40,134 bases of DNA, from positions 1 to 40,134 of the forward strand of contig CAJODT010000014.1 of the NCBI GenBank assembly GCA_905233365.1, read 5' to 3'. This document shows, piece after piece, positions 6,061-25,417 of this stretch. This stretch comes from an uncultured Succiniclasticum sp. (GTDB taxonomy: Bacteria > Bacillota > Negativicutes > Acidaminococcales > Acidaminococcaceae). The notes below the pieces were generated by a model, which was not told the origin of the DNA, did no database searches, and worked only from the letters and a program-made list of their open reading frames with translations. Position 1 is the stretch's first letter, and every line of letters starts with the position of its first letter. Position numbers and translations under genes: made by a program.

Positions 6061-6169
6061 TATTTGTCGGCATTTTTTTACAAAAATTAGATATTAAGCC
6101 ATAATTCATAACATTGTCCCCTGACAATTTCTGCCCTTTTCCATAAAAAGAGCGCTCATTATCCCCCGA

Positions 6170-6210: not shown

Positions 6211-6260
6211 CTTAAGGAACCATCAAGCAAATAAATTTCCCCGAAAAAACACGAAAACAC

Positions 6261-7983: not shown

Positions 7984-8015
7984 GATGTTTCCTTCTCTCA
8001 ATCATAGTAACTTAT

Positions 8016-8044
8016 ATTATAACGATTTTTTTATAAAATTGCAA
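8016..8044 (-). promoter_or_regulatory. metNI promoter
   Basis: TTGCAA (8039-8044), a 17-base spacer and TATAAT (8016-8021) on the minus strand. Transcription would start about 25 bases before the metN start codon, so there is no room for an S-box leader. Confidence 0.7.
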
Positions 8045-8104
8045 AATGTAATCTGCTTTTTTTACAAAAATAGTTTATGGAAACTTATTCGGCAAAAAGC
8101 AAAC

Positions 8105-8147
8105 AAAAAACGGTCATCCTGTCGAAAAAACAAGACGGCCGTTTTTT
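8105..8147. terminator. Bidirectional terminator after the acyl-CoA ligase gene
   Basis: AAAAAACGG and CCGTTTTTT pair, with an inner GTC/GAC pairing, and runs of T occur on either strand. It lies between the ligase gene (ending at 8300) and the metNI promoter, so it probably serves the minus-strand ligase transcript. Confidence 0.6.
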
Positions 8148-8248
8148 ATTGTAATTTTATAATTTACAACACAGCGTAAATCTTCCATTCCGGCTTCACT
8201 ACAACAGTATCCGGCAATTTCTCTATCATCAAAGGCAATGTAATGCAA
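8114..8248 (-). CDS. Possible 44-residue ORF (doubtful)
   Basis: A short frame beginning with TTG at 8248, preceded four bases upstream by AAGGAAGG, and ending at 8114. The predicted peptide is protein-like in composition (HYIAFDDREIAGYCCSEAG near its start), but it runs into the terminator hairpin at 8105-8147 and has a rare start codon. It could be a remnant of a decayed gene. The rest of this 316-base gap holds only the metNI promoter and the terminator. Confidence 0.2.
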   Translation of the reverse strand: MHYIAFDDREIAGYCCSEAGMEDLRCVVNYKITIKNGRLVFSTG

Positions 8249-8299
8249 CGACCCTTCCTTAAATTATCACTGCGCAGTTTTTTGGGGAATATAATATCA

Positions 8300-9784: not shown

Positions 9785-9828
9785 AAGAGTACCTCGCTTT
9801 TTAAATTTCTCTATAAATTATATATATT

Positions 9829-11175: not shown

Positions 11176-11291
11176 GATGTTACGCTCCCGGAACACTTTA
11201 TTTCGAAACTGATGATTATAATAATTTACGCAGTTGCCGATAAATCGATTCATACTTTCTCAAAACAACGTTTCCATTTAATTGTTATTTC

Positions 11292-11320
11292 ATTATAACA
11301 TAAATAGCCCCGCCTGTTAA
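11292..11320 (-). promoter_or_regulatory. nagA promoter
   Basis: TTAACA (11315-11320), a 17-base spacer and TATAAT (11292-11297) on the minus strand, leaving an approximately 110-base leader before the chosen nagA start. Confidence 0.6.
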
Positions 11321-11371
11321 AGCTGTGCCTGCGTACAAACACCTTATGCTTCAATCAGCTCTAATTTTTCA

Positions 11372-11400
11372 TTTACAAGCAGAATTCAAAGTTTTATAAT
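11372..11400 (+). promoter_or_regulatory. Promoter of the Cache-GGDEF gene
   Basis: TTTACA (11372-11377), a 17-base spacer and TATAAT (11395-11400), followed about 68 bases later by the start codon. It diverges from the nagA promoter. Confidence 0.6.
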
Positions 11401-11467
11401 ATAATTGAGAAATTATAAGGAAAATCAGATTAATAAAAAATTGCCAGCCTGCCAAGGGGTAAAGAAA

Positions 11468-13204
11468 ATGCATTCCATTCGATTTAAAATTACCGCAATG
11501 ACCATTGCGGCAATTCTGACCAGCCTTCTGGCTTTTATTATAATCGGCTTTTTCACCCTCGGAAAAGAAAGTGACCGGAGCTCGGTAGAAAAGATGAATC
11601 TGCTGAGTCAGAATGCGGAGAAAACGGCAGACGCACGTCTTAATAGCCTTAAAACGGCAGTAGATATGACCGCCCATATTGCCGGCCATTCCCTGGACGC
11701 CGTTAACCTGAAAGACTATGGTTTATCAGCAGAGTGCGTCACAGCAACCAGTCGTACGCCGGAACAGATGAAACAGCTGGACGCCTTTATGCAAAAGCAC
11801 TGCCAGGAAGTACAGCAGGCTTTCAGCAATACTGCTGATTTTACCAGCGGCATCGTAAGCTATTATTACTATATTAATCCGGAAATCGGCTCATCGGAAC
11901 ACGGCTTCTTTTATTCAAAGATTGGCAAATCATCTTTTGTTAAAAATCATTCGTTGATTGCAGTCCATCCGGATCCCGGCGACAAAGAGAACAGCGCCTG
12001 GTATTTTGAACCGGTATCACAGGGCAGGGCCTGCTGGGTCGGTCCCTATAAGGCTCATCTTCTGGGTAAATTGCCTACGGTTTCCTACGTTGTTCCCATC
12101 TATAATTACGGAGTGCTGATTGGCGTGCTGGGCATGGATACCCTGTTTTACAGCATAACATCGCCAATTCAGGCCATGCGGGTCTATAATACCGGTTTCG
12201 CCTTCCTGCTTAACGACAAAGGCCGTATCATTTTCCATCCCACCATATCGGCAGGCAAGACGTTGGAAGAAGTCAGCAGCGACCTCAATCCGGAAATATT
12301 CCAAACTCCGAACAATGGTAATAAACTGATCCGCTATACCGTGGAAGGAGAACAACGCCAGCTTTCCTTTACCACACTGTCCAACGGAATGAAGCTGGTA
12401 GTGACAGCGCCGACGGAGGAAATTTTTGCTTCACTGCGGCAGTCAACACGTTTTATCCTGTTGGCAGCCATCGCTATCCTTGCCGCATTTATTGTGGCCA
12501 CCCTGTTTATTGCGGGAGCGCTGACCAAACCGTTGCTACAGCTTGCCAACGCATCCCAGAAACTGTCCGCAGGAAATTTTGACGCAGAACTGGACTATGA
12601 AGGCGATGATGAGGTTGGCATCGTGACCCGCTCCTTCCGGCAGATGCGGGACCATCTGAAGCTGTATATCAGCGACCTGAACAGCCGGGCCTATTCGGAT
12701 GCCCTGACAGGAATCAAAAACAAGGGCGCCTTTGATATTTATGTGGGACGCCTGAACAACAGCATCCACCTGAATGCGGAAAACGGTGGTCCGGAGTTTG
12801 CCGTTGTCATGTTCGACTGTAACTGGCTAAAACAAATCAATGATGCCTATGGTCACGAACGGGGTGATGCCTACTTGCGCACAGCCAGTCGGGCGATCTG
12901 CCAGACCTTTACCCACAGTCCGGTGTTCCGTCTGGGAGGCGATGAATTTGCCGCCCTGCTGCAGGGTACTGATTACAAACACCGTGATGAATTGATGCAT
13001 GCCTTTGATAAAAAGGCGGAGGAAGTAGATGCCGCTGTCTCCAATCCCTGGGAGAAAGTGGATGTAGCCAAAGGGATCGCCGTGTTCCAGCCGGGCGCCG
13101 ATGACGGTGTGGAACAGGTTCTGCGCCGGGCAGACGAGCAGATGTACAGGGACAAGAAGAAACTCAAACTTTCGGAAGTACCGCCTCTGCCTGCTTTTAG
13201 TTAA
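11468..13204 (+). CDS. Membrane diguanylate cyclase: Cache sensor, HAMP, GGDEF
   Basis: Predicted to make cyclic-di-GMP in response to an extracytoplasmic ligand. Layout: transmembrane helix at about residues 7-29, a roughly 290-residue outside region typical of a double Cache domain, a second helix at about 328-352, HAMP, then GGDEF with an intact RLGGDEF at about residue 490. The inhibitory RxxD site is absent at the expected position upstream, so classical product inhibition is unlikely. I start at the ATG at 11468 (578 residues), which follows AAGGGG; the frame from 11405 lacks a ribosome site. It is monocistronic, between its own promoter and terminator. Confidence 0.88.
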   Translation: MHSIRFKITAMTIAAILTSLLAFIIIGFFTLGKESDRSSVEKMNLLSQNAEKTADARLNSLKTAVDMTAHIAGHSLDAVNLKDYGLSAECVTATSRTPEQMKQLDAFMQKHCQEVQQAFSNTADFTSGIVSYYYYINPEIGSSEHGFFYSKIGKSSFVKNHSLIAVHPDPGDKENSAWYFEPVSQGRACWVGPYKAHLLGKLPTVSYVVPIYNYGVLIGVLGMDTLFYSITSPIQAMRVYNTGFAFLLNDKGRIIFHPTISAGKTLEEVSSDLNPEIFQTPNNGNKLIRYTVEGEQRQLSFTTLSNGMKLVVTAPTEEIFASLRQSTRFILLAAIAILAAFIVATLFIAGALTKPLLQLANASQKLSAGNFDAELDYEGDDEVGIVTRSFRQMRDHLKLYISDLNSRAYSDALTGIKNKGAFDIYVGRLNNSIHLNAENGGPEFAVVMFDCNWLKQINDAYGHERGDAYLRTASRAICQTFTHSPVFRLGGDEFAALLQGTDYKHRDELMHAFDKKAEEVDAAVSNPWEKVDVAKGIAVFQPGADDGVEQVLRRADEQMYRDKKKLKLSEVPPLPAFS

Positions 13205-13230
13205 ATTTGTAACTGATATTGGACAGCAAA

Positions 13231-14370: not shown

Positions 14371-15969
14371 TTAATCTTTAAACGCGCCCAGTTTCTGCCC
14401 GATATGCAGGATACGGTTGCCAAGATATGGCAGGCTTTCCAGGTCTTCTCTCGTAACACCGCCGATGGCCGTTAACACCCCGCCGTATACGACAATGACA
14501 ACAGGAATACACAACAGAAGGACCCAGCCGCCCAGACCGGAGGCCACATACAGCACGCCCTGAACCGCCGCCCCCATGACCCCGGCTGCCACCATCGGTT
14601 TCAAAAAACCGGAAGCAGACATCTTATACCCGGTCAGCTTATAAATAAAGTACATATTGATCAACGCTGCAACGCCGAAATCAGCTACCGTAGCCATGGC
14701 TGAGCCACGAATCCCCAGCCAGGGAATGGCTGTCAGCGTCCAGTTCAGGCAGACTTTCACTACGCAAGCCACAATCATATTGAGGACCGGGATGCTGGTG
14801 CGACCCATGCCCTGCAATACCGCCGTACTCACCTGATGCATACCCAGCAGCACGATACCGATGCTCATGGCCTGAATAGCAGGCGCGGCACCGGGGGCAT
14901 TATAAATCAGCCCGGCCACTTTTTCTGCCAAACAGAACAGTCCAACAAAACAAGGGAAAGTCACGATCATAGCAACACGGAATGCCACACCGGTCTTGTG
15001 CCGGATATTATCCTGCCCGCCCAGGGCGCGCGCTTCCGAAATGGCTGGCACCAGGCTGATAGCCAACGCCGCTGTAAAAATAGTAGACAGGTTCACCAAC
15101 GGCACCGCCATGCCTGTCAGGTAACCGAACAGCTCTGTAGCGTGACGCACATCAAAACCCGCCACTTCCAACCGCTGAGGCACAATCAGCAGATCCAGGT
15201 TAGCCACGATGGGAAGCATCAGGCTGGTAAGGGAAACCGGCAGTGCAAGCTTTAGCAAACGTGAAATAATGGAAGATGAAGTCTCCTGCACTGCGTCCGG
15301 ATTTTGCAAATCCTGCTTCGCTTTCAGATCACTTTTCAGACGCTGATAGAAATACATCAGCACCAGCAGCGCACAGAACGCGCCGGCGCCCGCTCCCATA
15401 CTGGCGCCGCCCGCTGCCGCAGCCAGACCCTGGGGCAGGAAATAGGAAGCGAAAAACAGCATGGTCACAACCCGTACCATCTGCTCAGTAATTTCAGAAC
15501 AGGCGGTGGGCGTCATAATTTGCCAGCCCTGCAGGTAACCGCGGAAGCTGGCCAGAAATGTTACAAAAAATACTGCCGGGGCCAGGGCTATGATGGAATA
15601 ATACGCCCGGGCATCCCGGATAAATTGCCAGTCAATCAGCTTCCGGGCGCCAAAGAACAATGCGAGGGAAAACACCAAACCCGTTACGAATAACAGGCGC
15701 AGGGTAACATGAAAGACACGTTCCGCACCTTTGAAGTCGTTTTGGGCAACCTTCTCCGCTGTTACGATAGAAATTGCTACTGGTATTCCCGCTGAGGAAA
15801 CGGTGATTGCCATCAGGTAAATGGGAAAACCCATCTGGTACAGACCAATACCTTCCCCGCCCAGCACACGGCTCAGCAATATCCAGTTTAATGCGCCGAT
15901 GACCTTGACCACGATACTGGAAACGGTCAGAATCAGCGTACCTTTCAGAAAACGGTTATCGCTATTCAT
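14371..15969 (-). CDS. Polysaccharide/lipid flippase of the SpoVB/MurJ (MOP) superfamily
   Basis: A 532-residue integral membrane protein with about 14 hydrophobic helices, characteristic of the MVF/polysaccharide-transport branch. The N-terminus FLKGTLILTVSSIVVKVIGA and the early GEGIGLYQMGFPIY segment are typical of SpoVB-like proteins in Firmicutes. It probably flips a lipid-linked envelope precursor such as lipid II across the inner membrane; the substrate is inference. AAGGAG lies six bases before the ATG, and a sigmaA-like promoter lies about 40 bases upstream. It probably forms an operon with the following M23 peptidase. Confidence 0.85.
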   Translation of the reverse strand: MNSDNRFLKGTLILTVSSIVVKVIGALNWILLSRVLGGEGIGLYQMGFPIYLMAITVSSAGIPVAISIVTAEKVAQNDFKGAERVFHVTLRLLFVTGLVFSLALFFGARKLIDWQFIRDARAYYSIIALAPAVFFVTFLASFRGYLQGWQIMTPTACSEITEQMVRVVTMLFFASYFLPQGLAAAAGGASMGAGAGAFCALLVLMYFYQRLKSDLKAKQDLQNPDAVQETSSSIISRLLKLALPVSLTSLMLPIVANLDLLIVPQRLEVAGFDVRHATELFGYLTGMAVPLVNLSTIFTAALAISLVPAISEARALGGQDNIRHKTGVAFRVAMIVTFPCFVGLFCLAEKVAGLIYNAPGAAPAIQAMSIGIVLLGMHQVSTAVLQGMGRTSIPVLNMIVACVVKVCLNWTLTAIPWLGIRGSAMATVADFGVAALINMYFIYKLTGYKMSASGFLKPMVAAGVMGAAVQGVLYVASGLGGWVLLLCIPVVIVVYGGVLTAIGGVTREDLESLPYLGNRILHIGQKLGAFKD

Positions 15970-16007
15970 CAGCTTCTCCTTAAAAATGCAAACAAAGATA
16001 CATGATA

Positions 16008-16036
16008 ATATTATCGTTTTTATCCGCTTTTGACAA
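16008..16036 (-). promoter_or_regulatory. Promoter of the flippase-M23 operon
   Basis: TTGTCA (16031-16036), a 17-base spacer and TAATAT (16008-16013) on the minus strand. The rest of the 332-base gap (16040-16190) shows nothing I can name apart from the rubrerythrin promoter. Confidence 0.6.
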
Positions 16037-16199
16037 GCATTTCATGGGGTTTTTTATAATTCGTTACCAAATTTGCCTGCGATACCGATGAAAAAACCGT
16101 GTACTTCTTCCGATGTACCGGGAACGGTCCCCCTCTTTCTTTGGCGTAATCAATCAGCAAAATACTACTTTGGTACAGATTAATTCACAAATTGTTTCG

Positions 16200-16228
16200 T
16201 TGACAGGGGTTCCCCGCAATGCTATACT
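16200..16228 (+). promoter_or_regulatory. Rubrerythrin promoter
   Basis: TTGACA (16200-16205), a 17-base spacer and TATACT (16223-16228), a near-consensus promoter. The spacer opens with GGGGTTCCCC. No PerR-type box was recognised. Confidence 0.75.
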
Positions 16229-16301
16229 TTTTTTACGAGGAACGGTAGTATCCGTACCATAGAGATATTTAATGTATTAAAAAGATACGGAGGTAATCAT
16301 C

Positions 16302-16844
16302 ATGAAAAAATTCGTATGTTCCGTTTGCGGCTATGTGTATGAAGGAGCCGAACCCCCGGCAAAATGCCCCCAGTGCGGCGCTCCTGCTTCCAAATTTGTA
16401 GAGCAGGCCGGCGATATGACCTGGGCTGCTGAACATGTTGTAGGCGTAGCCGCTGATGTTCCCGAAGATATTAAAGCCGACCTGCGTGCCAACTTCAACG
16501 GCGAATGCACCGAAGTAGGCATGTACCTGGCTATGGCCCGCGTTGCGTTCCGGGAAGGCTATCCGGAAATCGGCCTGTACTGGGAAAAGGCTGCTTATGA
16601 AGAAGCCGAGCACGCTGCCAAATTTGCGGAACTGTTAGGCGAAGTTATTACCGACAGCACCAAAAAAAATCTGGAAATGCGCGTAGAAGCTGAAAACGGC
16701 GCAACCGCCGGCAAGACCGACCTGGCAAAACGTGCCAAAGCATTGAATCTGGACGCGATCCATGATACCGTTCATGAAATGGCCCGTGACGAAGCCCGCC
16801 ATGGCAAAGCATTCAAAGGTTTGCTGGAGCGTTACTTCAAATAA
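16302..16844 (+). CDS. Reverse rubrerythrin (N-terminal rubredoxin-like domain)
   Basis: Cytoplasmic peroxide-detoxifying diiron protein. The rubredoxin-like Fe(Cys)4 domain comes first, with CSVCGY and CPQCG (Cys6, Cys9, Cys23, Cys26). It is followed by the four-helix ferritin-like diiron domain, with [17 protein letters not shown] and DEARHGKAF contributing the Glu/His ligands. This order is that of reverse rubrerythrins, known in anaerobic Firmicutes as NADH-driven peroxidases. It has 180 residues, an AGGAGG-type site (ACGGAGG) before the ATG, its own strong promoter and a strong terminator, so it is monocistronic and probably highly expressed. Confidence 0.93.
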
Positions 16845-16858
16845 TATTTCAACAGCAC

Positions 16859-16897
16859 AAAACCGGCTTTCCCGTTTGGGGAAGCCGGTTTCTTCGT
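16859..16897 (+). terminator. Rubrerythrin terminator
   Basis: AACCGGCTTTCCC and GGGGAAGCCGGTT form a perfect 13-base stem with a short loop, followed by a pyrimidine-rich tail. Confidence 0.85.
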
Positions 16898-16932
16898 TAA
16901 TCACGCTTTCTTATGATTTCAGCCGGGCCTGC

Positions 16933-16962
16933 TTGACAATTTTACTGAAACTTATATATAAT
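16933..16962 (+). promoter_or_regulatory. tRNA-Pro promoter
   Basis: TTGACA (16933-16938), an 18-base spacer and TATAAT (16957-16962), about 38 bases upstream of the tRNA gene. Confidence 0.75.
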
Positions 16963-16999
16963 AGCAGTGCTTACATCAATAAAGTTGTAAGCACTATGT

Positions 17000-17076
17000 C
17001 GGGGCATAGCGCAGTTTGGTAGCGCACCTGCCTTGGGAGCAGGGGGTCGCAGGTTCAAATCCTGCTGCTCCGACCA
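17000..17076 (+). tRNA. tRNA-Pro (anticodon TGG)
   Basis: A complete 77-base cloverleaf: acceptor stem CGGGGCA/TGCTCCG with one G-U pair, D-arm GCGC, anticodon stem CCTGC/GCAGG with loop CTTGGGA (anticodon TGG), T-arm GCAGG-TTCAAAT-CCTGC and encoded CCA. The 3' half from 17031 is repeated at 23139-23184, so this gene is the attachment site of an integrated element. Its present 3' half came in with that element. Confidence 0.97.
17031..17076 (+). repeat. attL: tRNA-Pro 3' half, direct repeat
   Basis: This 46-base stretch recurs at 23139-23184 with two mismatches, both in the T-loop (TTCAAAT here, TTCGAGT there). Identity starts exactly at CCTTGGGAGC in the anticodon region and ends at the CCA, the usual extent for a tyrosine-recombinase tRNA site. 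Confidence 0.92.
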
Positions 17077-17085
17077 CAAAAATAA

Positions 17086-17127
17086 CCTCTCAGAGCCAGT
17101 AATAAAGCGGTTCTGAGAGGATTTTTA
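17086..17127 (+). terminator. Element-borne terminator for the rebuilt tRNA-Pro
   Basis: CCTCTCAGAGCC pairs with GGTTCTGAGAGG (12 bases with one G-U), followed by ATTTTTATTT. It lies nine bases after the tRNA CCA, just inside the element. Confidence 0.85.
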
Positions 17128-17172
17128 TTTGCATTATGCACTTTAACTTGCGAAAGAGAAAAAGCCGAAAAC

Positions 17173-17214
17173 GTACCCAAAATCATACAAAACATACCCA
17201 AAAATGTACCCAAA
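17173..17214. repeat. Candidate integrase arm-type sites, left end
   Basis: TACCCAAA motifs start at 17174, 17195 and 17207, with a degenerate copy near 17185, mostly about 12 bases (one helical turn) apart. The 23-base block at 17192-17214 recurs identically, in the same orientation, at 23066-23088 near the other end. Integrases with an N-terminal arm-binding domain, as here, bind such repeats. Confidence 0.6.
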
Positions 17215-17370
17215 AAAGAAAGCCCTTTTCTTTTTCTTCACTATCTGCTTTTCAGGCTTCCACATTTGCGTTTTAAGGCGTGTTCCGCATCCTGTTAGTA
17301 TAAATCCTTGCGTCAATCCTCAAAACGCTGTCAAAAACGATTTTACGCAGTCGATATTTTCAGACAGACA

Positions 17371-17400
17371 ATAAAAAAGCTGCCAGCAGAAGCCAGCAGC
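17371..17400 (-). terminator. Terminator of the element's minus-strand transcript
   Basis: On the minus strand GCTGCTGGC pairs with GCTGGCAGC (nine bases, two G-U) around a TTCT loop, followed by TTTTTTAT. It lies just beyond the last small gene of the element. Confidence 0.65.
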
Positions 17401-17411
17401 CTATCCGTTCA

Positions 17412-17552
17412 CTATTTAATTGCTTTGAGCGCATCCGCTAAGGGATTGTTGATTTTTTCAAGTTCCTGTATCGCCTTTTCCTTCTGTTCTTCACTCAACG
17501 ACTTAAAAACGTTGTATATCTCAATAATCGCCGCAATCCTTTCAGTGTCCAT
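17412..17552 (-). CDS. 46-residue small acidic helical protein of the satellite
   Basis: A short gene with an excellent ribosome site (AGGAGG, eight bases before the ATG), starting 13 bases beyond the stop codon of the preceding small gene. The product is mostly predicted helix (MDTERIAAIIEIYNVFKSL at the start, then a Glu/Lys-rich stretch), with no Cys, signal or membrane segment. I do not recognise it. As the last gene of the element's long minus-strand operon, before a terminator, it could be an accessory or helper-interference gene; that is speculation. Confidence 0.6.
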   Translation of the reverse strand: MDTERIAAIIEIYNVFKSLSEEQKEKAIQELEKINNPLADALKAIK

Positions 17553-17564
17553 GCTGCTTACCTC

Positions 17565-17738
17565 CTATTTTCTCAATTCTTGCATCTTATGAAACGCCTT
17601 TAATAAATCGCCCCGGCGTTCATACTCCGATTCAATCAGATAGATAATCAGTTCTGTTTTACTTTTTCCCATTGCATCAGCCAGTTCCGCAAACTTTTGA
17701 CTAACCTCTTCTGTCAGCTTGAAATTCTCTCTTCCCAC
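17565..17738 (-). CDS. 57-residue ribbon-helix-helix-like protein of the satellite
   Basis: Starts with GTG at 17738, with AGGAGG eight bases upstream. The N-terminal FKLTEEVSQKFAELADAMG followed by KSKTELIIYLIESEYERRG fits the strand-helix-helix plan of CopG/Arc-type repressors, which bind DNA as dimers. A minus-strand promoter (17774-17802) and the small palindrome TTTGCCGCAAA (17760-17770) lie immediately upstream, so it may be transcribed separately from the replication genes and may regulate itself. Family assignment is by eye only. Confidence 0.6.
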   Translation of the reverse strand: MGRENFKLTEEVSQKFAELADAMGKSKTELIIYLIESEYERRGDLLKAFHKMQELRK

Positions 17739-17759
17739 GTTTTCACCTCCTTCCTTGAC

Positions 17760-17802
17760 TTTGCCGCAAAATTATTGTATCATATCTTTAATCAAAAGTA
17801 CA
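17760..17802 (-). promoter_or_regulatory. Promoter and palindrome before the small satellite genes
   Basis: Minus-strand TGTACT (17797-17802), a 17-base spacer and TACAAT (17774-17779). Just downstream is TTTGCCGCAAA (17760-17770), whose TTTGC/GCAAA halves match those of the operator-like palindrome at 21039-21055. Confidence 0.5.
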
Positions 17803-17852
17803 TACATTACTTAAAATAATAATTTACTCAATTTACATAATGCAGATTATCG

Positions 17853-17940
17853 GACGTAAAATAATAATAGTGCTGAGAATCCAGTATTCATGCGGTTTCC
17901 AGCACTTTTTCTTTTTATTTTGATATTATTTTTACGTGTC
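17853..17940. repeat. Long imperfect inverted repeat downstream of terS
   Basis: GACGTAAAATAATA at 17853 is mirrored by TATTATTTTTACGTGTC ending at 17940. Between them AGTGCTG (17869-17875) pairs with CAGCACT (17900-17906), followed by a T-run on the plus strand. It may be a terminator for the terS transcript, or a replication or packaging structure. The remaining non-coding sequence (17803-18046) is AT-rich with nothing else I can name. Confidence 0.5.
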
Positions 17941-18046
17941 TTTTGACTAAAAACAGGAAATTTCAGAGAATGTACATTGTGCAAACACATTTTGTGTAAA
18001 CCAATCGACGTACAACGAATTTTATTGATAATACTGTAATATTTTT

Positions 18047-18427
18047 CTAAACTCTCAAAAATTCCGCTTTTGTTCCGTTACGTTCAAAAGTAAAAATGAT
18101 TTTATCATCTTCTTTTTCCTGCTCTGTTGTCGTATCGTTATTTGAATATCCTCTTTTTCTGCCCTTAAGCCGCAAGTAAAACATAGTAGCTTTCAAATTG
18201 CCATCTTTTATGTATTCTATGATGTTGCTTTCAGCAGTATCTAATACGGTTTCTTCTGCATCCATGAAAGCATCCGCAATAACCTTGCTGCTTTCTTTTC
18301 GCTTATAAATCGCAGACCGTGTTATATCTATTCCGTATTTTTCTTTAAGCGTTCTTTGTATCCCGGATATAATACCAGCGTTCTTTTTTATTGCGTCAAC
18401 AAGCACTTTATCTGTAACTTTTTTCAT
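18047..18427 (-). CDS. TerS-like small terminase subunit of the satellite
   Basis: A 126-residue protein. The N-terminal half reads as a helix-turn-helix (GIISGIQRTLKEKYGIDITR, then SAIYKRK). It is followed by LDTAESNIIEYIKDGN and ATMFYLRLKGRKRGYS, a segment I associate with small terminase subunits of Firmicute phages. The tail is acidic, then polar. In PICIs a satellite TerS pairs with the helper phage large subunit to redirect packaging. No large terminase gene is present in the element, consistent with that. AGGT lies seven bases before the ATG. A different HTH protein cannot be excluded. Confidence 0.68.
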   Translation of the reverse strand: MKKVTDKVLVDAIKKNAGIISGIQRTLKEKYGIDITRSAIYKRKESSKVIADAFMDAEETVLDTAESNIIEYIKDGNLKATMFYLRLKGRKRGYSNNDTTTEQEKEDDKIIFTFERNGTKAEFLRV

Positions 18428-18463
18428 AATAATTACCTGTGTAGTTTCGTATAGTTTGAAGCG

Positions 18464-18757
18464 TCAAAACAAACATTTATAATTCAATAGTTCTGATACG
18501 TCACTTATAGACCGGGCAAGAATATATGTGCATCCATGAGAAATACATATCTTTTCAAATTCTTTCTGATAATCAGACTGTCGCCCGGTTTCCGTTTTAA
18601 CTTCAATATAGACCGTCCGTCCTTCTTTCATTGCTGTAAGGTCGGGGAAGCCTTTACGACTTCCCACACCTTGCAAGTGATATGTAACATCCCAGCCAGC
18701 ACGGCGCAATGCGTCTGTAATGCTGCGCCGGATGAATGTTTCCTTTTGTATCGTCAT
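18464..18757 (-). CDS. VRR-NUC domain nuclease
   Basis: A 97-residue PD-(D/E)XK nuclease of the stand-alone VRR-NUC type found in many phages. The catalytic pattern is clear: GSRKGFPDL (Asp39), then VYIEVK (Glu52, Lys54), then GRQSDYQ. The start is the ATG at 18757, whose ATGA overlaps the stop codon of the preceding Cys-rich gene, so the pair is translationally coupled. The frame open upstream to 18802 is overlap only. It probably resolves branched DNA during element replication or packaging; the exact substrate is unknown. Confidence 0.8.
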   Translation of the reverse strand: MTIQKETFIRRSITDALRRAGWDVTYHLQGVGSRKGFPDLTAMKEGRTVYIEVKTETGRQSDYQKEFEKICISHGCTYILARSISDVSELLNYKCLF

Positions 18758-18936
18758 TTTATCAGTCCACACCTCCGTTTTGCTTCGTTCCATAAAGCAC
18801 ACTTCGACTTGTTACAGTACCACTGCCTAAATGGACAACTTTTCACGTTTTCTTTTTTATTATCATCCATGTATTTCTTGGGTTCTAATGTATCCCAGCC
18901 CATAATCTCTAAGCCGGGAGTGATTTTATCTCTCAT
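18754..18936 (-). CDS. Small Cys-rich protein, putative zinc finger
   Basis: A 60-residue protein with four cysteines in its second half (Cys34, Cys41, Cys46, Cys56), in the pattern CPFRQWYCNKSKCALW, then a final Cys near the end, suggesting one metal site. The start is the ATG at 18936, preceded by GGAGG; the longer frame from 18960 has no ribosome site. The stop overlaps the start of the VRR-NUC gene (ATGA). Proteins of this look are common in phage replication modules, but I cannot name a family or a function. Confidence 0.65.
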   Translation of the reverse strand: MRDKITPGLEIMGWDTLEPKKYMDDNKKENVKSCPFRQWYCNKSKCALWNEAKRRCGLIK

Positions 18937-18960
18937 TGTGTACCTCCGTTTTATTTTCAA

Positions 18961-19071
18961 AAAAACTTTGCATAAAAACCATCAGAATTATCAGAATGTG
19001 TCAACCATGCATATTAGAGCTATCTAAAAAACGTCAGGAAAACTGTCAGCCTGATTGTTTTAAACTGTCAG
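18961..19071. other. Candidate replication origin with iteron-like repeats
   Basis: The short gap directly after the primase gene holds CTGATAATTCTGAT (minus strand, 18981-18994) and two AACTGTCAG copies (19041-19049 and 19063-19071) exactly 22 bases apart, amid AT-rich DNA. Related CTGATARTTCTG repeats occur near the right end (22944-23012). In staphylococcal PICIs the origin lies just after the replicase gene. The repeats are seen; origin function is inference. Confidence 0.45.
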
Positions 19072-20462
19072 CGAGATAAAAGACCACCGATATAGTCGCC
19101 GTTTTCCGTGTGCTGTTTTGGATAGCCACGCTTTGACATTTCCCGGTAAAAGCTATTCCGTCCGAGTAGCGCCCTATCGCCTTTTGCCCAGTCCTGATAT
19201 ATCCCAAATACCACACTTGCCTTGATAGGTACTGCGTCTTTTTCAGTGTAAAAACACTCTGCAATAAAGTCTGAAAGCGTGTCTTGCTGCTGGTAAAAAT
19301 CTGTCATAACCTTTTTCATTTCGGCAGGGAATCCCGGCGAATCATAATCCGGCAGTCCTTCTTCCTTATACGCTTTGTACCCTTCCCACAACCATTGAAA
19401 ACAGGCATCCAGTTCCGCTTGTTGTGACAGCTCCTTTTTTAAGTGTTCATTCCTGATAGGGATTATACTGTCAAAAGGGATTATCACAAGCCGCCGTTTC
19501 ATACCATTGTCAAAAATATCCTCAATTGCCGGCAGGTAGTTCGTTTGAATCGTCAGCTTGAATTGCGGTTTAAAATCGAATGGTAGTCCGTGCGGCATCC
19601 GTGCGGTAACAGTATCGCTGCCAGTCAGCAACTTAATTTTTGCATCATCAAATTTACAGCCTTTTGACGTTTCGCTTGATAGTACCAGCCGCTTACCTTT
19701 AAGCTTTGCAATTTCGCTGTTGTGTGCGCTACCGTCTGCCGTTCGCTGCCCGGCCAGCAAAGCATTTACCGATAAAGTGACGGTGTAATCTTTTCCGAGT
19801 GCCGCCGCTATTGTTTCCATTACTGTACCTTTACCGCCGCCGCCGCTACCATATAGCACGATAAATTTTTCCGCTTCTGTACTGCCTGATAGACAATATC
19901 CCATAAACTTTTGAAAGTACCGGCGAGTACCTGCGTCCGGTAGAATCTCTGCTATTGATTTCGCCCATAAGCCGTCATTGTAACTTTTGCAGTACTTTGT
20001 TGGCGCAATCTGTGTCAGATAATCTTCCCGGCGGTGTGACCGTGCAGTGCCAGATTCTAAATCCAGCGTACAATCCTGCAAATTGAGCAGATTCTCTTTT
20101 GTGTCGAACAATTCGATATCTGCAACAAGTTCAGATTGTAAATGCTTGATACAACCATTAACCCGGTTACTGTTTTCGCTGGATAACAGAAACTTTTTTG
20201 TGGCATCTATTGCCGGATTTTGTTTCTTTTCTTCATCAGAAAACTTTAATGCCGCCAATTGCCTAAAGCAAGTCACTACCGGTTTAATGAGTGCCAGTTC
20301 ACTAACTTTTTCCCACTTTTTGCCGTTCCAGTGCAGCCAGTACTTTAACTGCCAGCAATACCGCCAATCCTGGCCTATCATTTTCGCAATACGTTCAGCA
20401 TTTCCAGCATCTGTACGGTTAAGGAAAAAGAGATTATTTAATTCACTTTTTGTCAATTCCAT
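19068..20462 (-). CDS. D5/P4-type primase-helicase (replication initiator of the satellite)
   Basis: A 464-residue protein. The middle carries the D5_N-type region and an SF3 helicase core: Walker A GSGGGGKGT (about 205-213), then a B-like RLVLSSETS and a sensor segment LTIQTNYLP. The C-terminal third resembles the P4 primase C-terminal domain. No N-terminal primase-polymerase catalytic domain is obvious, so it may be a helicase-initiator only. AGGT precedes the ATG. It is followed immediately by the iteron-like region, as expected for an element that replicates autonomously after induction. Confidence 0.88.
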   Translation of the reverse strand: MELTKSELNNLFFLNRTDAGNAERIAKMIGQDWRYCWQLKYWLHWNGKKWEKVSELALIKPVVTCFRQLAALKFSDEEKKQNPAIDATKKFLLSSENSNRVNGCIKHLQSELVADIELFDTKENLLNLQDCTLDLESGTARSHRREDYLTQIAPTKYCKSYNDGLWAKSIAEILPDAGTRRYFQKFMGYCLSGSTEAEKFIVLYGSGGGGKGTVMETIAAALGKDYTVTLSVNALLAGQRTADGSAHNSEIAKLKGKRLVLSSETSKGCKFDDAKIKLLTGSDTVTARMPHGLPFDFKPQFKLTIQTNYLPAIEDIFDNGMKRRLVIIPFDSIIPIRNEHLKKELSQQAELDACFQWLWEGYKAYKEEGLPDYDSPGFPAEMKKVMTDFYQQQDTLSDFIAECFYTEKDAVPIKASVVFGIYQDWAKGDRALLGRNSFYREMSKRGYPKQHTENGDYIGGLLSR

Positions 20463-20510
20463 GTTATAATTACCTCATAAGGGGAAAGAAATCCGCTATT
20501 TCTGCCGCCC

Positions 20511-20819
20511 TTAAATATTACCGTCAGCATTTGCCCTGCTGGCGGTTTTTCTTTTCTCAATCATCGCCTTGAGCCGTTCCGTCCTGCTGGCGTATTTCTC
20601 CGGCAGCCTATTAACATTTCGGCAGCGTGTGCGTTTCGGTTGGGGCTGGTATATCGGTACAGCCTTATACAGTTCGAGCGTCTTTAATGCCTTTTCCTCA
20701 TTCAGCAGATATACCCTGCCTGACTGCCAGTGTTCAAGCTGGCCAATCCTGCACATTCGCCGGATAAGTTTCAAAGGAAATCCTGTTTTTTCTGCAAACT
20801 CTTTCGCGCTTACAATCAT
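20511..20819 (-). CDS. Excisionase/MerR-like winged-helix protein
   Basis: A 102-residue basic protein. The N-terminal half (SAKEFAEKTGFPLKLIRRMC, then GQLEHWQSGRVYLLNEEKAL) has the layout of an excisionase/MerR-type winged helix, while the C-terminal half is basic and polar. It lies three bases after the XRE gene, in the early position of the divergent operon, fitting an Xis or a transcriptional activator. A GC-rich hairpin (20522-20552) overlaps its 3' end, with a T-run on the plus strand only. Function is inference. Confidence 0.65.
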   Translation of the reverse strand: MIVSAKEFAEKTGFPLKLIRRMCRIGQLEHWQSGRVYLLNEEKALKTLELYKAVPIYQPQPKRTRCRNVNRLPEKYASRTERLKAMIEKRKTASRANADGNI

Positions 20820-20822
20820 CTT

Positions 20823-21023
20823 TCAATCCTCCTTCATAAGCACTTCCGGGGAAACGTTCAGAGCCGTTGCCAGTCGACCAATTGTTGCAATATTAGGAAT
20901 CCTGTTTGTATTAAGGATTTTTGCAATGGTGTCGCTTCCCACTTTTGATTTTTTTGCCAGTTCTGCAATGCTAACACAGTTTTTTGCCATTGCGATTTTT
21001 AAAGCATCTCTGTTGAATATCAT
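20823..21023 (-). CDS. Cro-like XRE-family regulator
   Basis: A 66-residue single-domain helix-turn-helix protein (SIAELAKKSKVGSDTIAKIL, then IATIGRLATALNVSPEVLM). It is the first gene of the minus-strand replication operon and faces the repressor gene across a 115-base divergent promoter region. This is the Cro/Str position in lambdoid and PICI switches. It probably represses the repressor promoter or activates the replication operon. Confidence 0.82.
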   Translation of the reverse strand: MIFNRDALKIAMAKNCVSIAELAKKSKVGSDTIAKILNTNRIPNIATIGRLATALNVSPEVLMKED

Positions 21024-21038
21024 CTTTTCCTCTCTTTC

Positions 21039-21102
21039 TTTGCAATTACTGCAAATTACTTTCTTGACAATTCTATTATATCATGGTATTTTTATTTTGA
21101 AA
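21039..21102. promoter_or_regulatory. Divergent switch region: two promoters and an operator-like palindrome
   Basis: Plus strand: TTGACA (21064-21069), a 17-base spacer and TATTTT (21087-21092), toward the repressor-integrase genes. Minus strand: TTTCAA (21097-21102), a 16-base spacer and TATAAT (21075-21080), toward the Cro-like gene. The promoters overlap, so they should exclude each other. TTTGCAATTACTGCAAA (21039-21055) is a perfect inverted repeat just downstream of the minus-strand promoter. Confidence 0.65.
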
Positions 21103-21138
21103 TCCATAAAATAATAGATTAAAAGGAGGTCGCATATT

Positions 21139-21786
21139 ATGAAGTTTGAAGAACGAAAAGCAATATTCAGTAAAAACTTGCGGTATTACAGAGAGAAAGC
21201 AGGATTCACTCAAGCACAAATAGCGGAAAAGCTGGGAATGAATCCTAAGGCGTACAGCACATACGAAACAGAAAAAAATACTCCAACATTTGATAAGCTG
21301 CTTTCACTGTGTGAAGTGCTTAATACCAACCCTAACGCACTATTAGGCTTCGAAGAAATTGAACATTTTAACACTTGTTGTAAGCACTACGGAATTGAAT
21401 ACAGTACCGAAAAAAAAAGTATTGCAAAAGTAAGATTTACGCTACGCCCGCAAGACGATTATCAAACAATGAGAGTTGAAAAGAGTATATTTTTCAAAAT
21501 ACTCAACGAGTTGATAGAGGAATTTGATACTAAACCAAAAGATGATGATATTAAAAAGCTGCGAGAAACTGAAAACAAGTATTTTCAAATGCTTTTACAA
21601 ATACGTATCGGCGTTGCTCAAATCGGCATTGACAAAATCATTGCTGGCATTCAAAAAAGCCAGGAAACTCTTAAACGTCTTGACGACATAGCAAAACGCA
21701 AAAATAAAACTTTCAAGGATATTGAAAGGCTTCAAGATAAAGGATTGACCTACGAGCAAATCATAAAGATGTTCGAAAAGGAGTGA
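21139..21786 (+). CDS. Stl/CI-like repressor without a peptidase domain
   Basis: A 215-residue protein: an N-terminal XRE helix-turn-helix (about residues 10-65; FTQAQIAEKLGMNPKAYSTY) joined to a long, charged, helical C-terminal half. There is no LexA/CI-type S24 serine-lysine protease motif, so SOS self-cleavage is unlikely. PICI master repressors (Stl) likewise lack that domain and are released by binding a helper-phage protein. AAAGGAGG precedes the ATG. The integrase gene follows four bases after its stop, so the two are cotranscribed, as in PICIs. Confidence 0.8.
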   Translation: MKFEERKAIFSKNLRYYREKAGFTQAQIAEKLGMNPKAYSTYETEKNTPTFDKLLSLCEVLNTNPNALLGFEEIEHFNTCCKHYGIEYSTEKKSIAKVRFTLRPQDDYQTMRVEKSIFFKILNELIEEFDTKPKDDDIKKLRETENKYFQMLLQIRIGVAQIGIDKIIAGIQKSQETLKRLDDIAKRKNKTFKDIERLQDKGLTYEQIIKMFEKE

Positions 21787-21790
21787 TATT

Positions 21791-23002
21791 ATGTACGGTG
21801 AAGGAACAATAGGACGTGAAAAAGTCGGTAAATATGAATATTATACGTTGCAGTATTACGATAATTCAGGCAAGAAACAAAAAAAGCGTTTCCCATACAC
21901 CAAAGAAGGTATGAAAAACGCAAAGAAGTTTCAAAAGGAAGTCAGTAAAAAGAAGGCAGACGGCGTGCTGGTTAGCACTACTCACACAGTAGCAAGCTGG
22001 TGTGAAGAGTACATACAGACTTATAAAGTCAATGGTTTGCGTGATAGTAGCTTGCTGATATTAGTACAGACATTTAACAAGATTGAAGTATCGCCTATCG
22101 CTAACGTTCCGTTGGATAAACTAAACGGCGCAATGGTACAGAATTTCTATAATATGCTTGCAGAAACGTGGACGGACGCAAACGGAAAAGAACATCAGCC
22201 AATCGCCAGCAGTACCATAAGCAAGGTACATAAACTGCTTGCAGCAGCGTACAAAAAGGCTGTACAGCTTCGTATTATCGCCTTGAATCCAATGGATACA
22301 GTAGAGCCAGTCAGACCGCATTACAAAGAAAAAGGCGTGTTCACGTGGCGTGAAATGGGCAGGATTTTCCGGGCGATAGATAAAATCACCAAAAATAAGA
22401 GCAATACCCGGCAACGTTATGACTTCCGCTTGATATTCATGTTACTTGCTGAAACTGGTTGCCGTGTCGGCGAATTGCTTGCCTTACGTTGGGAAGATAT
22501 TAATTTCAGTAAAAGAGAAATCCATATTCACAGTACCAAAGTCAGAGACAAACAGGATTTTAACGACACAAAAACCAAAGCCGGAAATAGATATATTCCT
22601 ATCATTTCGGATAAACTGCTGGCAAGATTAAAGGAATACCGCAACTATGGCAGTGTAATCAAGTTACAGGGATTTGTTTTTGAGGATAGCAGCGGCGGCG
22701 CAATGGAATATCGCCGGATAACTGGTTACTGGAAACGTATCAAAGAGATAACAGGAATTGAAGGCAACGTCCACATGTTCCGCCACACGTTCGCAACCTA
22801 TCTGCTGGCAAAAGGAATACCTGTTGCAGAAGTCAGCCGGATTTTAGGACATGCAGACGCAACCATAACTTACGGAATGTATGTTCACGCTATCCCCGGA
22901 TATAATCAGAGAATCATAGAAATGTTCAGGCAAAAGAATCAGCCTGATAGTTCTGCTGATAATTCTGAATCGGCGCAAAGCCGCACGGTTGCTAAGTCCT
23001 GA
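21791..23002 (+). CDS. int: Tyrosine-recombinase integrase
   Basis: A 403-residue phage-type integrase. The N-terminal 60 residues look like an AP2-type arm-binding domain (KYEYYTLQYYDNSGKKQKKR). A SAM-like core-binding domain (TVASWCEEYIQTYKVNGL) follows, then the catalytic domain: Arg225 (TGCRVGELLALRW), His328-Arg331 (HMFRHTFATYL), His354 and the nucleophile Tyr364 (LGHADATITYGMYVH). AAGGAG lies before the ATG. It ends about 140 bases from attR. The polar C-terminal tail is encoded by tandem 12-base repeats that may serve as DNA sites. Confidence 0.95.
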   Translation: MYGEGTIGREKVGKYEYYTLQYYDNSGKKQKKRFPYTKEGMKNAKKFQKEVSKKKADGVLVSTTHTVASWCEEYIQTYKVNGLRDSSLLILVQTFNKIEVSPIANVPLDKLNGAMVQNFYNMLAETWTDANGKEHQPIASSTISKVHKLLAAAYKKAVQLRIIALNPMDTVEPVRPHYKEKGVFTWREMGRIFRAIDKITKNKSNTRQRYDFRLIFMLLAETGCRVGELLALRWEDINFSKREIHIHSTKVRDKQDFNDTKTKAGNRYIPIISDKLLARLKEYRNYGSVIKLQGFVFEDSSGGAMEYRRITGYWKRIKEITGIEGNVHMFRHTFATYLLAKGIPVAEVSRILGHADATITYGMYVHAIPGYNQRIIEMFRQKNQPDSSADNSESAQSRTVAKS

Positions 23003-23012
23003 TAATTCTGAT
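22944..23012. repeat. CTGATARTTCTG repeats at the right end of the element
   Basis: Two adjacent 12-base copies (22944-22955 and 22956-22967) lie inside the end of int and a third (22999-23010) lies at its stop codon. An inverted copy sits at 18983-18994 beside the primase gene. They are possible binding sites for Xis or the replication initiator. Confidence 0.5.
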
Positions 23013-23065
23013 AGTTTTTTATGTAACTTTTTATAAAAACGTGATTGCAGCATCCAAAAAGAAAG

Positions 23066-23088
23066 ACATACCCAAAAATGTACCCAAA
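23066..23088. repeat. Candidate integrase arm-type sites, right end
   Basis: A 23-base block identical to 17192-17214, containing two TACCCAAA motifs 12 bases apart, about 50 bases inside attR. Confidence 0.6.
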
Positions 23089-23138
23089 CATTTTTTAGAA
23101 TACGTCAACCACGCTATTTATAAGCATTTTTACACAGT

Positions 23139-23184
23139 CCTTGGGAGCAGGGGGTCGCAGGTTCGAGTCCTGCTGCTCCGACCA
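23139..23184 (+). repeat. attR: displaced original 3' end of tRNA-Pro
   Basis: Direct repeat of 17031-17076 with two T-loop differences. It is followed by a hairpin that was probably the terminator of the original tRNA gene, supporting the view that this is the host-derived half. Confidence 0.92.
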
Positions 23185-23202
23185 TTTTATTTTTAAAGAA
23201 AA

Positions 23203-23240
23203 CAGCCGGTTGCACACAAATTGCAGCCGGCTTATTTTTT
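23203..23240. terminator. Original tRNA-Pro terminator, now shared with the next gene
   Basis: AGCCGGTTGCA pairs with TGCAGCCGGCT (11 bases with one G-U), followed by TTATTTTTT. T-rich flanks on the other side let it also end the minus-strand gene at 23232. Confidence 0.8.
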
Positions 23241-23708
23241 AATGGAAAACCTTTCTTTTTTATAACACTCTGCAACAAAATCAGCTTGCAGTTCCCTGTC
23301 TTCAGGATAAAAACTTATGCCTTTAAATCCAACACCTCTTCCGCAATACGGGCTGCGTTCATAATGCAGTCCGGACAGGGAGTTAAAACCTTTCAGCTCC
23401 TTGCAAACCAGGGAATGGCACTGTTCCTGGAATCTGTTTACGATTTCTTCCGCCAGCTTATAGGTTTCCAGTTTGCTATCCGGAGTTTCCAAATTGCCCG
23501 TACTCCGTTTCATACCGGCCAGCACGCAGGCGCCGCTTAATGCGCCACAGGTCGCCAGGGTGCCGCCCATGCCTTTCCCCAGGCCTTCTGTCACTTTAAA
23601 CATGGTGGCTTCATCCAGTCCTACCAGGTCAGCATAGGTACAGGCTACTGACTGGGCGCAGTTGTAACCCTTGTCGTGCCGCACGATAGTCTCTTTTACT
23701 CTTGTCAT
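23232..23708 (-). CDS. C_GCAxxG_C_C family putative redox protein
   Basis: A 158-residue cysteine-rich cytoplasmic protein. Signature positions are GYNCAQSV, TCGALSGACVLAGM and CHSLVCKEL, with further cysteines in SPYCGRG and AECYKKE. The family is assigned a redox role, probably binding an Fe-S or other cofactor, but no reaction is established. GGAGG lies seven bases before the ATG. It ends inside the old tRNA-Pro terminator, immediately beyond the right boundary of the satellite, so it is the native chromosomal neighbour of tRNA-Pro. Confidence 0.82.
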   Translation of the reverse strand: MTRVKETIVRHDKGYNCAQSVACTYADLVGLDEATMFKVTEGLGKGMGGTLATCGALSGACVLAGMKRSTGNLETPDSKLETYKLAEEIVNRFQEQCHSLVCKELKGFNSLSGLHYERSPYCGRGVGFKGISFYPEDRELQADFVAECYKKERFSIKK

Positions 23709-23833
23709 ACCGATTCCTCCTCTTATATTGCTTTTTCTTTTAACTTATTAAGATACATCTGAATAATATTACAGTTCCTTAAATTACAAATCCAAAATAT
23801 CTTTCATCCGAAGCTTTTTAAAACATAAAGTCC

Positions 23834-25417
23834 TCAGTATTTTTCCGGTGTATGGGGATCCGGCAATTTCTCGTAGCGGATGCCCACGCCGCAGTTATAT
23901 TTCATTAAAAGTTTCGCGTAAAGCTGCTTCCAGTCTTCAAAAATTTTCACCGCGTTCTTGTTGAGCTCTTCAGTAAACTTTTCCTTTGAGAGACCGCGGG
24001 ATGCTTTGACCAAGCGATGGGATTCTTCCTCCGATTTGCCGACCGCCTCTTTTACAAGTGGATATATTATATCGAAATAGCCTTGCGACAGGGACATGAC
24101 CTGGTTAGCTGCCCAATACATTTTTGTAGGATCATAGATGTCGCGCAGAGCGTGTTTATACGCTTTGGGCATTTCCGCTACGGCAAAGGGAATATAAGAA
24201 TTCTCCAGCGGCGTATTCATTGCGTACCAGACAATCGGCGACGGAAGGGCGTCATTGTTCTGCACCACATGAGAATAACTCGTCTTCGCCGACAGGATGG
24301 AACGCTCTCCTTTTTCTTTTTCGTAATGGTAGGGCGATCCGTACAGGCCTGCCAGCGAACTCTTCGATTTATCGAACTCTGTCCCCTGGTAGTAGTCCCG
24401 GTGCAGGCGCATGATATCTTCTACGTCCAGTTTTTTGTCAGGGGTAACGGACAGGGGATATGTCTTCGAATCCCAGCCGCTGACCCTGGGCGGGAAGTTC
24501 TTCGACGGAGCAACGCTGCTCAGTCCCCGCCAAACGCGCCGCTGGGAATAATACGGATGGTTGAATTCTTTGGCCTCCAGAGACAGTACCCAGTCCAGCT
24601 TTCCGTTTTCGTCGTAAGCCGCCCAGCCGAGGTCCTTCAGCATCTGCGGAAGTCGCGGATTAAACATCTGGTCGGAATCGCCTTCCCGGATAGCGCGGAT
24701 CCGCAGCTGGTTCCCTGTGATGGAATAATTCCCATCAGGAATCTTTTCCGCTATCCAGAGGCCGCCCTTGCCGCCGGGCACCATCTGCATCTCAAAAATC
24801 CAGGCTTCGTTTTTGTCACCGACGGCCAGCGTTTCCGCCGTGCCCCAGAGGCCGTACTCATCGATCAGGCTGCCCATAAGCTGAATGGCCTCCCGGGCGG
24901 TCTTGCAGCGTTCTAGAGCCACATGGCTGAGCTCGGACGCATAAAAAATCCCTTCGCCTTCCTTGTAGGGAGCCCGGATCAGGTGCTCTGACTTGTCAGT
25001 GCATTCACCGAACATCAGGCCGTGCTCGTTCAGTACGCCATAATCTGCGTCCATATAGGCATAAGTGTGTTCCACCTGAGGAATATAACCTATGGGTTTG
25101 GTCTGCGGTCTGCCGGGATAGTTCCAGCCGTCACCCCGTTCCGTCGTCACCAGGGCAGGCTGGTTAAAAGCGTTGTACTCAGGCATTTCATCCAGCGCGA
25201 CTGCCGTAGGATAAACGGGACGGAGACTGCCCTTTGGGTGATCTTTCGCCGGCACATAGACAAGGTTCATTTCACCGCCGAAGCCGTCGTTCGAATGGGA
25301 TACCAGCACACTGCCGTCTACAGACGCACCCTTTGTAACAACCATCACCGTGCAGGCTTCGGCACTTACACTCAAAATTGAAAGCAGAGCCATTCCTGCA
25401 ATTAGTCCTTTTAACAA
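23834..25417 (-). CDS. Secreted C69-family dipeptidase (PepD-like)
   Basis: An N-terminal-nucleophile (Ntn) hydrolase that cleaves dipeptides. After a signal peptide (hydrophobic core, AEA cleavage site) the mature protein begins with Cys22 in ACTVMVVTKGASVDGS, the expected catalytic nucleophile, followed by SHSNDGFGGE. The start is a TTG at 25417 (527 residues): AAGGAGGGG sits eight bases upstream, while the ATG at 25471 lies upstream of that site and would add an unlikely leader. It stands alone on the minus strand, and a palindrome lies about 65 bases upstream. It is probably periplasmic. Confidence 0.85.
   Translation of the reverse strand: MLKGLIAGMALLSILSVSAEACTVMVVTKGASVDGSVLVSHSNDGFGGEMNLVYVPAKDHPKGSLRPVYPTAVALDEMPEYNAFNQPALVTTERGDGWNYPGRPQTKPIGYIPQVEHTYAYMDADYGVLNEHGLMFGECTDKSEHLIRAPYKEGEGIFYASELSHVALERCKTAREAIQLMGSLIDEYGLWGTAETLAVGDKNEAWIFEMQMVPGGKGGLWIAEKIPDGNYSITGNQLRIRAIREGDSDQMFNPRLPQMLKDLGWAAYDENGKLDWVLSLEAKEFNHPYYSQRRVWRGLSSVAPSKNFPPRVSGWDSKTYPLSVTPDKKLDVEDIMRLHRDYYQGTEFDKSKSSLAGLYGSPYHYEKEKGERSILSAKTSYSHVVQNNDALPSPIVWYAMNTPLENSYIPFAVAEMPKAYKHALRDIYDPTKMYWAANQVMSLSQGYFDIIYPLVKEAVGKSEEESHRLVKASRGLSKEKFTEELNKNAVKIFEDWKQLYAKLLMKYNCGVGIRYEKLPDPHTPEKY

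Follow-up and report, generated by a model that had tools for sequence, protein, structure and literature searches.

The window analysed here is a 40,134-nt stretch of DNA from an uncultured Succiniclasticum sp. (contig CAJODT010000014.1), in which two copies of a tRNA-Pro end delimit a compact element that is probably a phage satellite of the type resembling phage-inducible chromosomal islands (PICI-like), the smallest of five related elements. Its likely genes, ten in number, were chosen from a mechanical list of 67 open reading frames (ORFs) in 15500-25000. They are laid out below together with the ends of the element; figures after family names are E-values.

17000-17076, + strand: tRNA-Pro(tgg), intact, the insertion target (ARAGORN, Rfam)
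17031-17076, + strand: attL core, 46 nt, a direct repeat equal to the last 46 nt of tRNA-Pro
17192-17214, + strand: candidate integrase arm-type site, left; 23-nt exact repeat with its partner at 23066-23088
17412-17552, - strand: 46-aa ORF, from the ORF list
17565-17738, - strand: ribbon-helix-helix (RHH) regulator, 57 aa; PF01402 0.0062 (below its cut-off), phrog_3887 4.9e-4
18047-18427, - strand: TerS-like protein (small terminase subunit), 126 aa; identity via relatives
18464-18802, - strand: VRR-NUC nuclease, 112 aa; PF08774 1e-6, phrog_93 1.2e-12
18754-18960, - strand: 68-aa ORF, no family match
19068-20462, - strand: D5-type replication helicase (D5_N/DUF5906), 464 aa; PF08706 1.4e-24, TIGR01613 7.7e-57
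20511-20819, - strand: Cox/Xis-like protein, 102 aa; phrog_575 1.7e-4, TIGR01764 0.002 (below its cut-off)
20823-21023, - strand: Cro-like helix-turn-helix (HTH) protein, 66 aa; PF01381 1.2e-7
21139-21786, + strand: CI/Stl-like repressor, 215 aa; HTH_3, no S24 protease domain listed
21791-23002, + strand: tyrosine integrase, 403 aa; PF00589 3.1e-28, phrog_1 3.2e-68
23066-23088, + strand: candidate integrase arm-type site, right; exact copy of the 23-nt left repeat
23139-23184, + strand: attR core, 46 nt, 44/46 identical to attL

The spacing between the two att cores is 6,108 nt, which sets the size of the element at 6,108 bp and bears out the 46-bp att repeats in tRNA-Pro that an earlier, sequence-only reading had described. 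A 21-24-nt repeat near both ends, fitting integrase arm sites, recurs in three of the four sister elements presented below (L011, L013 and L014). The tRNA-Pro gene was located in 13 of the 14 genus genomes (none was found in G013); three of these sites are occupied, by the window element and, in two sister species, by L011 and C74, and the other ten are empty, with a CGCAxxG-family gene or a tRNA-Gly within ~0.9 kb 3' of tRNA-Pro. The empty site of G012 was inferred across a contig break, and at those of G005 and G011 the sequence 3' of the tRNA is similar to the right flank of the window element. The check for empty tRNA-Pro sites in relatives, which the sequence-only reading had proposed, was therefore positive: unoccupied sites do occur, and the boundaries of the element are those marked by the repeats. 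A hairpin just inside attL (17077-17131) resembles the sequence that follows the empty tRNA-Pro in G001 and G012 (L080, L089) and is without counterpart after that of G005 and G011; it may be a tRNA terminator brought by the element, or may represent traces of past insertions.

All ten genes are intact. The integrase gene starts 4 nt behind that of the CI-like repressor, both on the + strand, in keeping with the pairing of integrase and repressor noted earlier. The divergent Cro-like/Xis-like/primase-helicase operon of the same reading stood in part, since the Cro, Cox and D5 helicase genes are present but the primase half is absent: the 464-aa D5 protein aligns (40%) with approximately residues 315-766 of the L013 D5 primase (778 aa), whose primase-type regions sit in the N-terminal part and are missing from the window protein. 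Judged from this alignment, the latter is a helicase/initiator without the primase half. Similarly, the VRR-NUC and TerS-like genes are both in place but do not close the operon, as the RHH gene, after a gap of ~300 nt, and the 46-aa ORF follow TerS. At E < 0.05, Pfam and PHROGs showed no structural, lysis or large-terminase family for any of the ten proteins (for the D5 protein, PHROGs listed a terminase small subunit at E 0.051), and none of them matched a relaxase in Pfam, which places the element outside the integrative mobilizable elements; the claimed lack of structural, lysis, large-terminase and conjugation genes thus held in these searches. Altogether, these data support both a PICI-like gene order and a precise insertion at tRNA-Pro. 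PADLOC matched the Cox, Cro and CI proteins only, and we take the models concerned to be DNA-binding components of defence systems. Counts of promoter-like (19 vs 15.7, sd 3.8) and terminator-like (6 vs 5.5) signals were not clearly above those of shuffled sequence.

Identification of the TerS-like protein came through its relatives. One of them, in phage vB_RanS_PJN03, overlaps the start of terL, the large terminase gene, and in phages RHph_I36 and Erebus the relative comes after primase and VRR-NUC, lying in Erebus near the end of a linear record that has terL at its start. The window protein retrieved zero relatives from IMG/VR as a single query, and an alignment of five family members retrieved at least 461 among 600 IMG/VR stretches. 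Gene neighbours were read for the best 80 of these relatives; an ORF was present for 78, and for 71 of them the contig continued for 600 bp or more downstream. A two-query search evidenced terL as the next ORF in 56 of these 71 usable viral contigs and did not resolve the next ORF as terL in the remaining 15; the 78 ORFs form 15 clusters at 80% identity and are therefore not independent. Of the 16 family members aligned, 14 have matches to terminase small subunit families of PHROGs; the window member has none. The AlphaFold2 model (pLDDT 79.7) displays HTH-like helices followed by long helices and a poor C-terminus, and the BFVD fold search yielded two matches at E <= 0.001, the second-ranked being an annotated TerS (E 7.6e-4, probability 1.00). 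Against PDB sequences, the TerS profile reached weak matches to HTH, resolvase and 14-3-3 proteins (best E 0.036). It is through this family of relatives that the window gene is identified as TerS-like.

An integrase search of 61 genomes traced the relatives of the window element, four of which have clear att repeats (identities are to the window integrase):

L011, genome G003, at tRNA-Pro: 10,380 bp, integrase 73-74% identical
C74 (= L012+L045), genome G002, at tRNA-Pro: 11,899 bp, integrase 66-67% identical
L013, genome G002, at tRNA-Trp: 7,875 bp, integrase 53-55% identical
L014, genome G001, at tRNA-Trp: 10,752 bp, integrase 52-54% identical

The five elements are distributed over four of the 14 genus genomes. 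An integrase alignment search of the genome_contigs set returned four loci, which are the four sisters, and a family search of 59 genomes added no further place. Genes for the integrase, Cox and RHH proteins, as well as a CI-type HTH gene adjoining int, occur in all five elements, and VRR-NUC and Cro in four. Replication genes vary, from D5 (window element and L013) to a DnaD loader plus a DnaB-like helicase (L011 and C74) and DnaD (L014). The TerS proteins fall into three mutually dissimilar types, the first being that of the window element, with those of L011 and C74, 89% identical to each other, of the phrog_51 type (1.1e-13; PF03592 8.6e-5, below cut-off) and that of L014 of the phrog_57 type (1.6e-29; PF07471 7.7e-5, below cut-off). 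Across 41 genomes, the L011-type TerS was found in C74 (89%) and at one weak place in G044. Two genes adjoin the phrog_51-type TerS at 4490-5330 of L011: one belongs to phrog_2412 and is 80% identical in C74, and the other encodes 147 aa and is present in L011 only among the five.

Two sisters further encode tape-measure proteins. That of L014 (1,057 aa) matches phrog_28 (4.4e-106) and TIGR01760 (1.8e-75, above cut-off), whereas that of C74 (545 aa) matches phrog_2276 (3.7e-22) and no Pfam or NCBIfam tape-measure family. The L014 protein has matches in six of 41 genomes besides its own, none of them in the genus (the best of the long matches being 31% identical), and no match in IMG/VR; among 41 genomes, the C74 protein matched G019 (28%) and a 24-residue piece in L011. 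The latter was discarded, being judged by eye to be a stretch at the end of the conserved TerS2 gene read in the wrong frame, upstream of the likely start. In the window element, tblastn with both sister proteins revealed no tape measure. A TerL profile run over the loci of the five elements gave no match, with an imperfect ORF overlap filter that lost the window VRR-NUC ORF and maybe other small ORFs; whole-genome searches for TerL and portal (phrog_2, PF03237, PF04860) likewise placed none on the contigs that carry these elements. Relaxases had no match among the sister proteins scanned, a selection that did not take in every small ORF. Loci L015-L018, with integrases ~42-49% identical and viewed as ORF lists, were left out of the family; for L018 and L016 no second tRNA end copy was found.

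We then compared substitution rates between L011 and C74. The dN/dS ratios were 0.10 for TerS (dS 0.71), 0.33 for TerS2, 0.22 for the DnaB-like helicase, 0.16 for DnaD, 0.14 for VRR, 0.10 for int, 0.02 for Cox, 0.31 for a 120-aa ORF and 0.07 for a 181-aa ORF. In three pairs involving the window element, Cox gave 0.19, int and VRR being saturated. By this measure TerS is under purifying selection between L011 and C74, though neither element showed TerL; its ratio could also stem from divergence inside phages before capture. Values of dS ranged from 0.06 to 1.29, a spread that suggests exchange of parts by recombination.

The lack of recognised particle genes, the precise insertion, the intact genes and the same-site sisters were all observed directly, and three accounts of them were weighed. 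It is unlikely that the element is the left end of a deleted prophage, that is, early genes plus TerS that have lost everything from terL onward and are no longer mobile or helper-dependent. The primase - VRR-NUC - TerS-like order exists in phages RHph_I36 and Erebus, so that the block resembles a piece taken out of the early region of a phage, but the ten genes are intact between two precise att ends, and four sisters of 7.9-11.9 kb are likewise without a terL that we could find, despite differing replication, TerS and tape-measure genes. The purifying selection on TerS also argues against a remnant, with the proviso on divergence before capture just given. A larger prophage in relatives had been named as the finding that would overturn the satellite interpretation. 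The relatives with the closest integrases at tRNA-Pro turned out to be the 10.4- and 11.9-kb elements, whose genomes gave no TerL or portal match in the three families, and no prophage, larger or otherwise, was seen at the 13 genus sites read, which come from few genomes. Quite improbable, in our view, is an integrative element akin to plasmids, transferred by conjugation or otherwise, whose TerS-like protein is an ordinary DNA-binding regulator. D5-type proteins do occur on plasmids (405 of 72,556 plasmid records; 1,146 of 50,697 phage records), and a relaxase-bearing locus of the same genus, L019, has a 33%-identical integrase and a Cox relative. Against this account, relaxase matches are absent from the ten window proteins and the sister proteins scanned, the TerS-like family adjoins terL in viral contigs, and the other TerS types and tape-measure genes of the sisters would be needless for conjugation.

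A PICI-like phage satellite thus remains the probable identity of the window element, and several observations weigh against it. The TerS-like protein has no usable family match of its own, to TerS or otherwise; five of the 16 aligned family members match DNA-binding PHROGs and three match transposase PHROGs; the PDB fold search gave no match at E <= 0.001, with Sf6 TerS at rank 4 (E 1.3); and the window TerS had a single other relative, 27% identical, in 100 genomes. Sister L013 has no recognised TerS, no interference or capsid-remodelling gene was recognised among the window genes, and the genus genomes examined are drafts or metagenome-assembled genomes. Lastly, the window's own genome revealed no helper, as it gave no match to the markers searched across the 14 genus genomes, namely TerL (phrog_2, PF03237) and portal (PF04860). 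Such matches were evident in G001, G005, G006, G007 and G008, and there were none in the genomes of L011 and C74 or on contig C17, which carries L014. Control sets for this search matched in 6, 6 and 4 of the 14 genomes, so divergent helpers could be missed.

For the window element as a satellite, we infer induction, replication, packaging and helper dependence along the following lines. The CI/Stl-like repressor would keep the element silent until a helper-phage protein relieves repression; no SOS-cleavable S24 domain was detected. Integrase and Cox would then excise a circle at the tRNA-Pro cores, and the D5 helicase would start replication, perhaps at the repeats 3' of its gene, with priming supplied by the host or the helper. 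VRR-NUC may trim or resolve branched concatemers, and the element TerS would direct the helper TerL to satellite DNA, filling helper heads. As no capsid-resizing gene was recognised, the 6.1-kb units are expected to enter heads as multi-copy concatemers. This has been shown for PICMI115 (6,110 bp), a phage-inducible chromosomal minimalist island (PICMI), some of whose particles contained concatemers of eight copies (PMC10803314). A broader proposition, which we find evenly poised, is that the five elements make up one modular Negativicutes satellite family, with constant integrase, CI-type repressor, Cox and RHH genes, an exchangeable helper-hijack cassette (one of three TerS types, tape measure in two) in which packaging specificity and tail length would be swapped to match helpers, and no capsid gene.

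Among described satellites, Gram-positive PICIs (SaPI type, from Staphylococcus aureus pathogenicity island) come closest in layout, with a divergent repressor/Cro pair, int behind the repressor, and xis, rep and sometimes terS on the opposite side (PMC6092414). The window element matches this int-repressor / xis-rep-terS order apart from the missing primase half, and both lack recognised structural or lytic genes (10/10 window genes scanned), although C74 and L014 have a tape measure. It differs in its VRR-NUC, in a helicase devoid of the primase half and in the lack of a recognised interference or capsid gene. With induction and packaging predicted from its genes and no interference gene recognised, the element is filed as PICI-like and not as a formal PICI, its 6.1 kb also falling short of the ~15 kb given for Gram-positive PICIs (PMC6092414); PICIs average 9.5 kb (PMC10803314). 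The PICMIs of Vibrionaceae share with it the size, few genes, an integrase plus a replication gene and the absence of capsid remodelling, but they insert next to fis and use AlpA, with no terS homolog identified in them (PMC10803314); the TerS-like gene, CI/Cro control and tRNA-Pro site set the window element apart from them. The satellite-controlled tails of PLEs (PICI-like elements) of Vibrio cholerae are a further parallel, since PLEs build chimeric tails and satellite tape-measure proteins were shown in them in 2026 (PMC12987554). C74 and L014 share the tape measure, which the window element is without, and pair it with TerS; host and other genes differ. Some capsid-forming PICIs (cf-PICIs) also carry putative tmp genes (PMC12987554), together with capsid genes of their own, none of which was recognised in the window element. 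With the Streptococcus satellite phages Javan205 and Javan353 the comparison extends to the integrase alone, ~28% identical.

The sequence-only reading had suggested that, at 6.1 kb, the element may define a minimal satellite type; in size it has a counterpart in PICMI115 with its 6,110 bp (PMC10803314). The 6,108-bp size is therefore no record, and satellite tape-measure genes are already published for PLEs. Dependence on the helper for every morphogenesis function, part of the same suggestion, would be a prediction for the window element, and two of its sisters bring a tape-measure gene of their own. The further statement of that reading, that it knew of no satellite described in this lineage, agrees with the literature covered, as searches of open-licence papers in PubMed Central (PMC) turned up none on a satellite of Negativicutes, Acidaminococcaceae or Megasphaera. 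If packaged, the window element would be a satellite in a bacterial class for which those searches turned up none, and would combine a genome of PICMI size with a packaging gene of the PICI kind. The combination of TerS and tape measure in two sisters would extend the satellite-controlled tails reported for PLEs in 2026 to unrelated satellites, and would show two virion steps that a small satellite may own, the choice of DNA and the tail ruler.

A candidate origin of replication emerged from the repeats of the window element:

18977-19071, - strand: four CTGAYRRTT repeats, at and 3' of the rep (D5) gene end; candidate origin iterons
22944-23016, + strand: four CTGAYRRTT repeats, near attR; candidate Cox or Rep sites

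CTGAYRRTT occurs nine times in the element, against a mean of 0.52 and a maximum of five in 200 shuffles, and eight of the nine copies fall in these two clusters. C74 also has nine copies, five of them near attR, and L011, L013 and L014 have three, one and one, unclustered. AT content at 18961-19067 reaches 67% vs 60% for the element. Since the motif was picked after looking, it is taken as a candidate origin or Cox site. The origins of Gram-positive PICIs lie immediately 3' of rep, with two iteron sets around an AT-rich stretch (PMC6092414).

Database searches with other parts of the element returned distant relatives. In IMG/VR, the window integrase had zero relatives as a single query and five weak loci as an alignment, and the D5 protein had 13 distant loci. 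The best-ranked integrases in phage records, including those of Streptococcus satellite phages, are ~28% identical, and a whole-element DNA search in phages matched the tRNA part alone (~1% of the query) among the matches listed. Locus L019 (G003:C61, ~5028-12746) lies between two tRNA-Arg end copies and encodes a Mob_Pre relaxase (PF01076 1.8e-9) along with a relative of Cox and an integrase that is 32-33% identical; it appears to be a mobilizable element whose integration module is related. Finally, D5 helicase genes of ~500 aa, 35-38% identical to that of the window element, are present as orphans at eight loci of the same genus, L031-L038, and are possibly domesticated there. In L031, where no integrase was seen, the D5 gene and a separate NrS-1-primase-like gene lie near each other (9455-10951 and 12061-13224).

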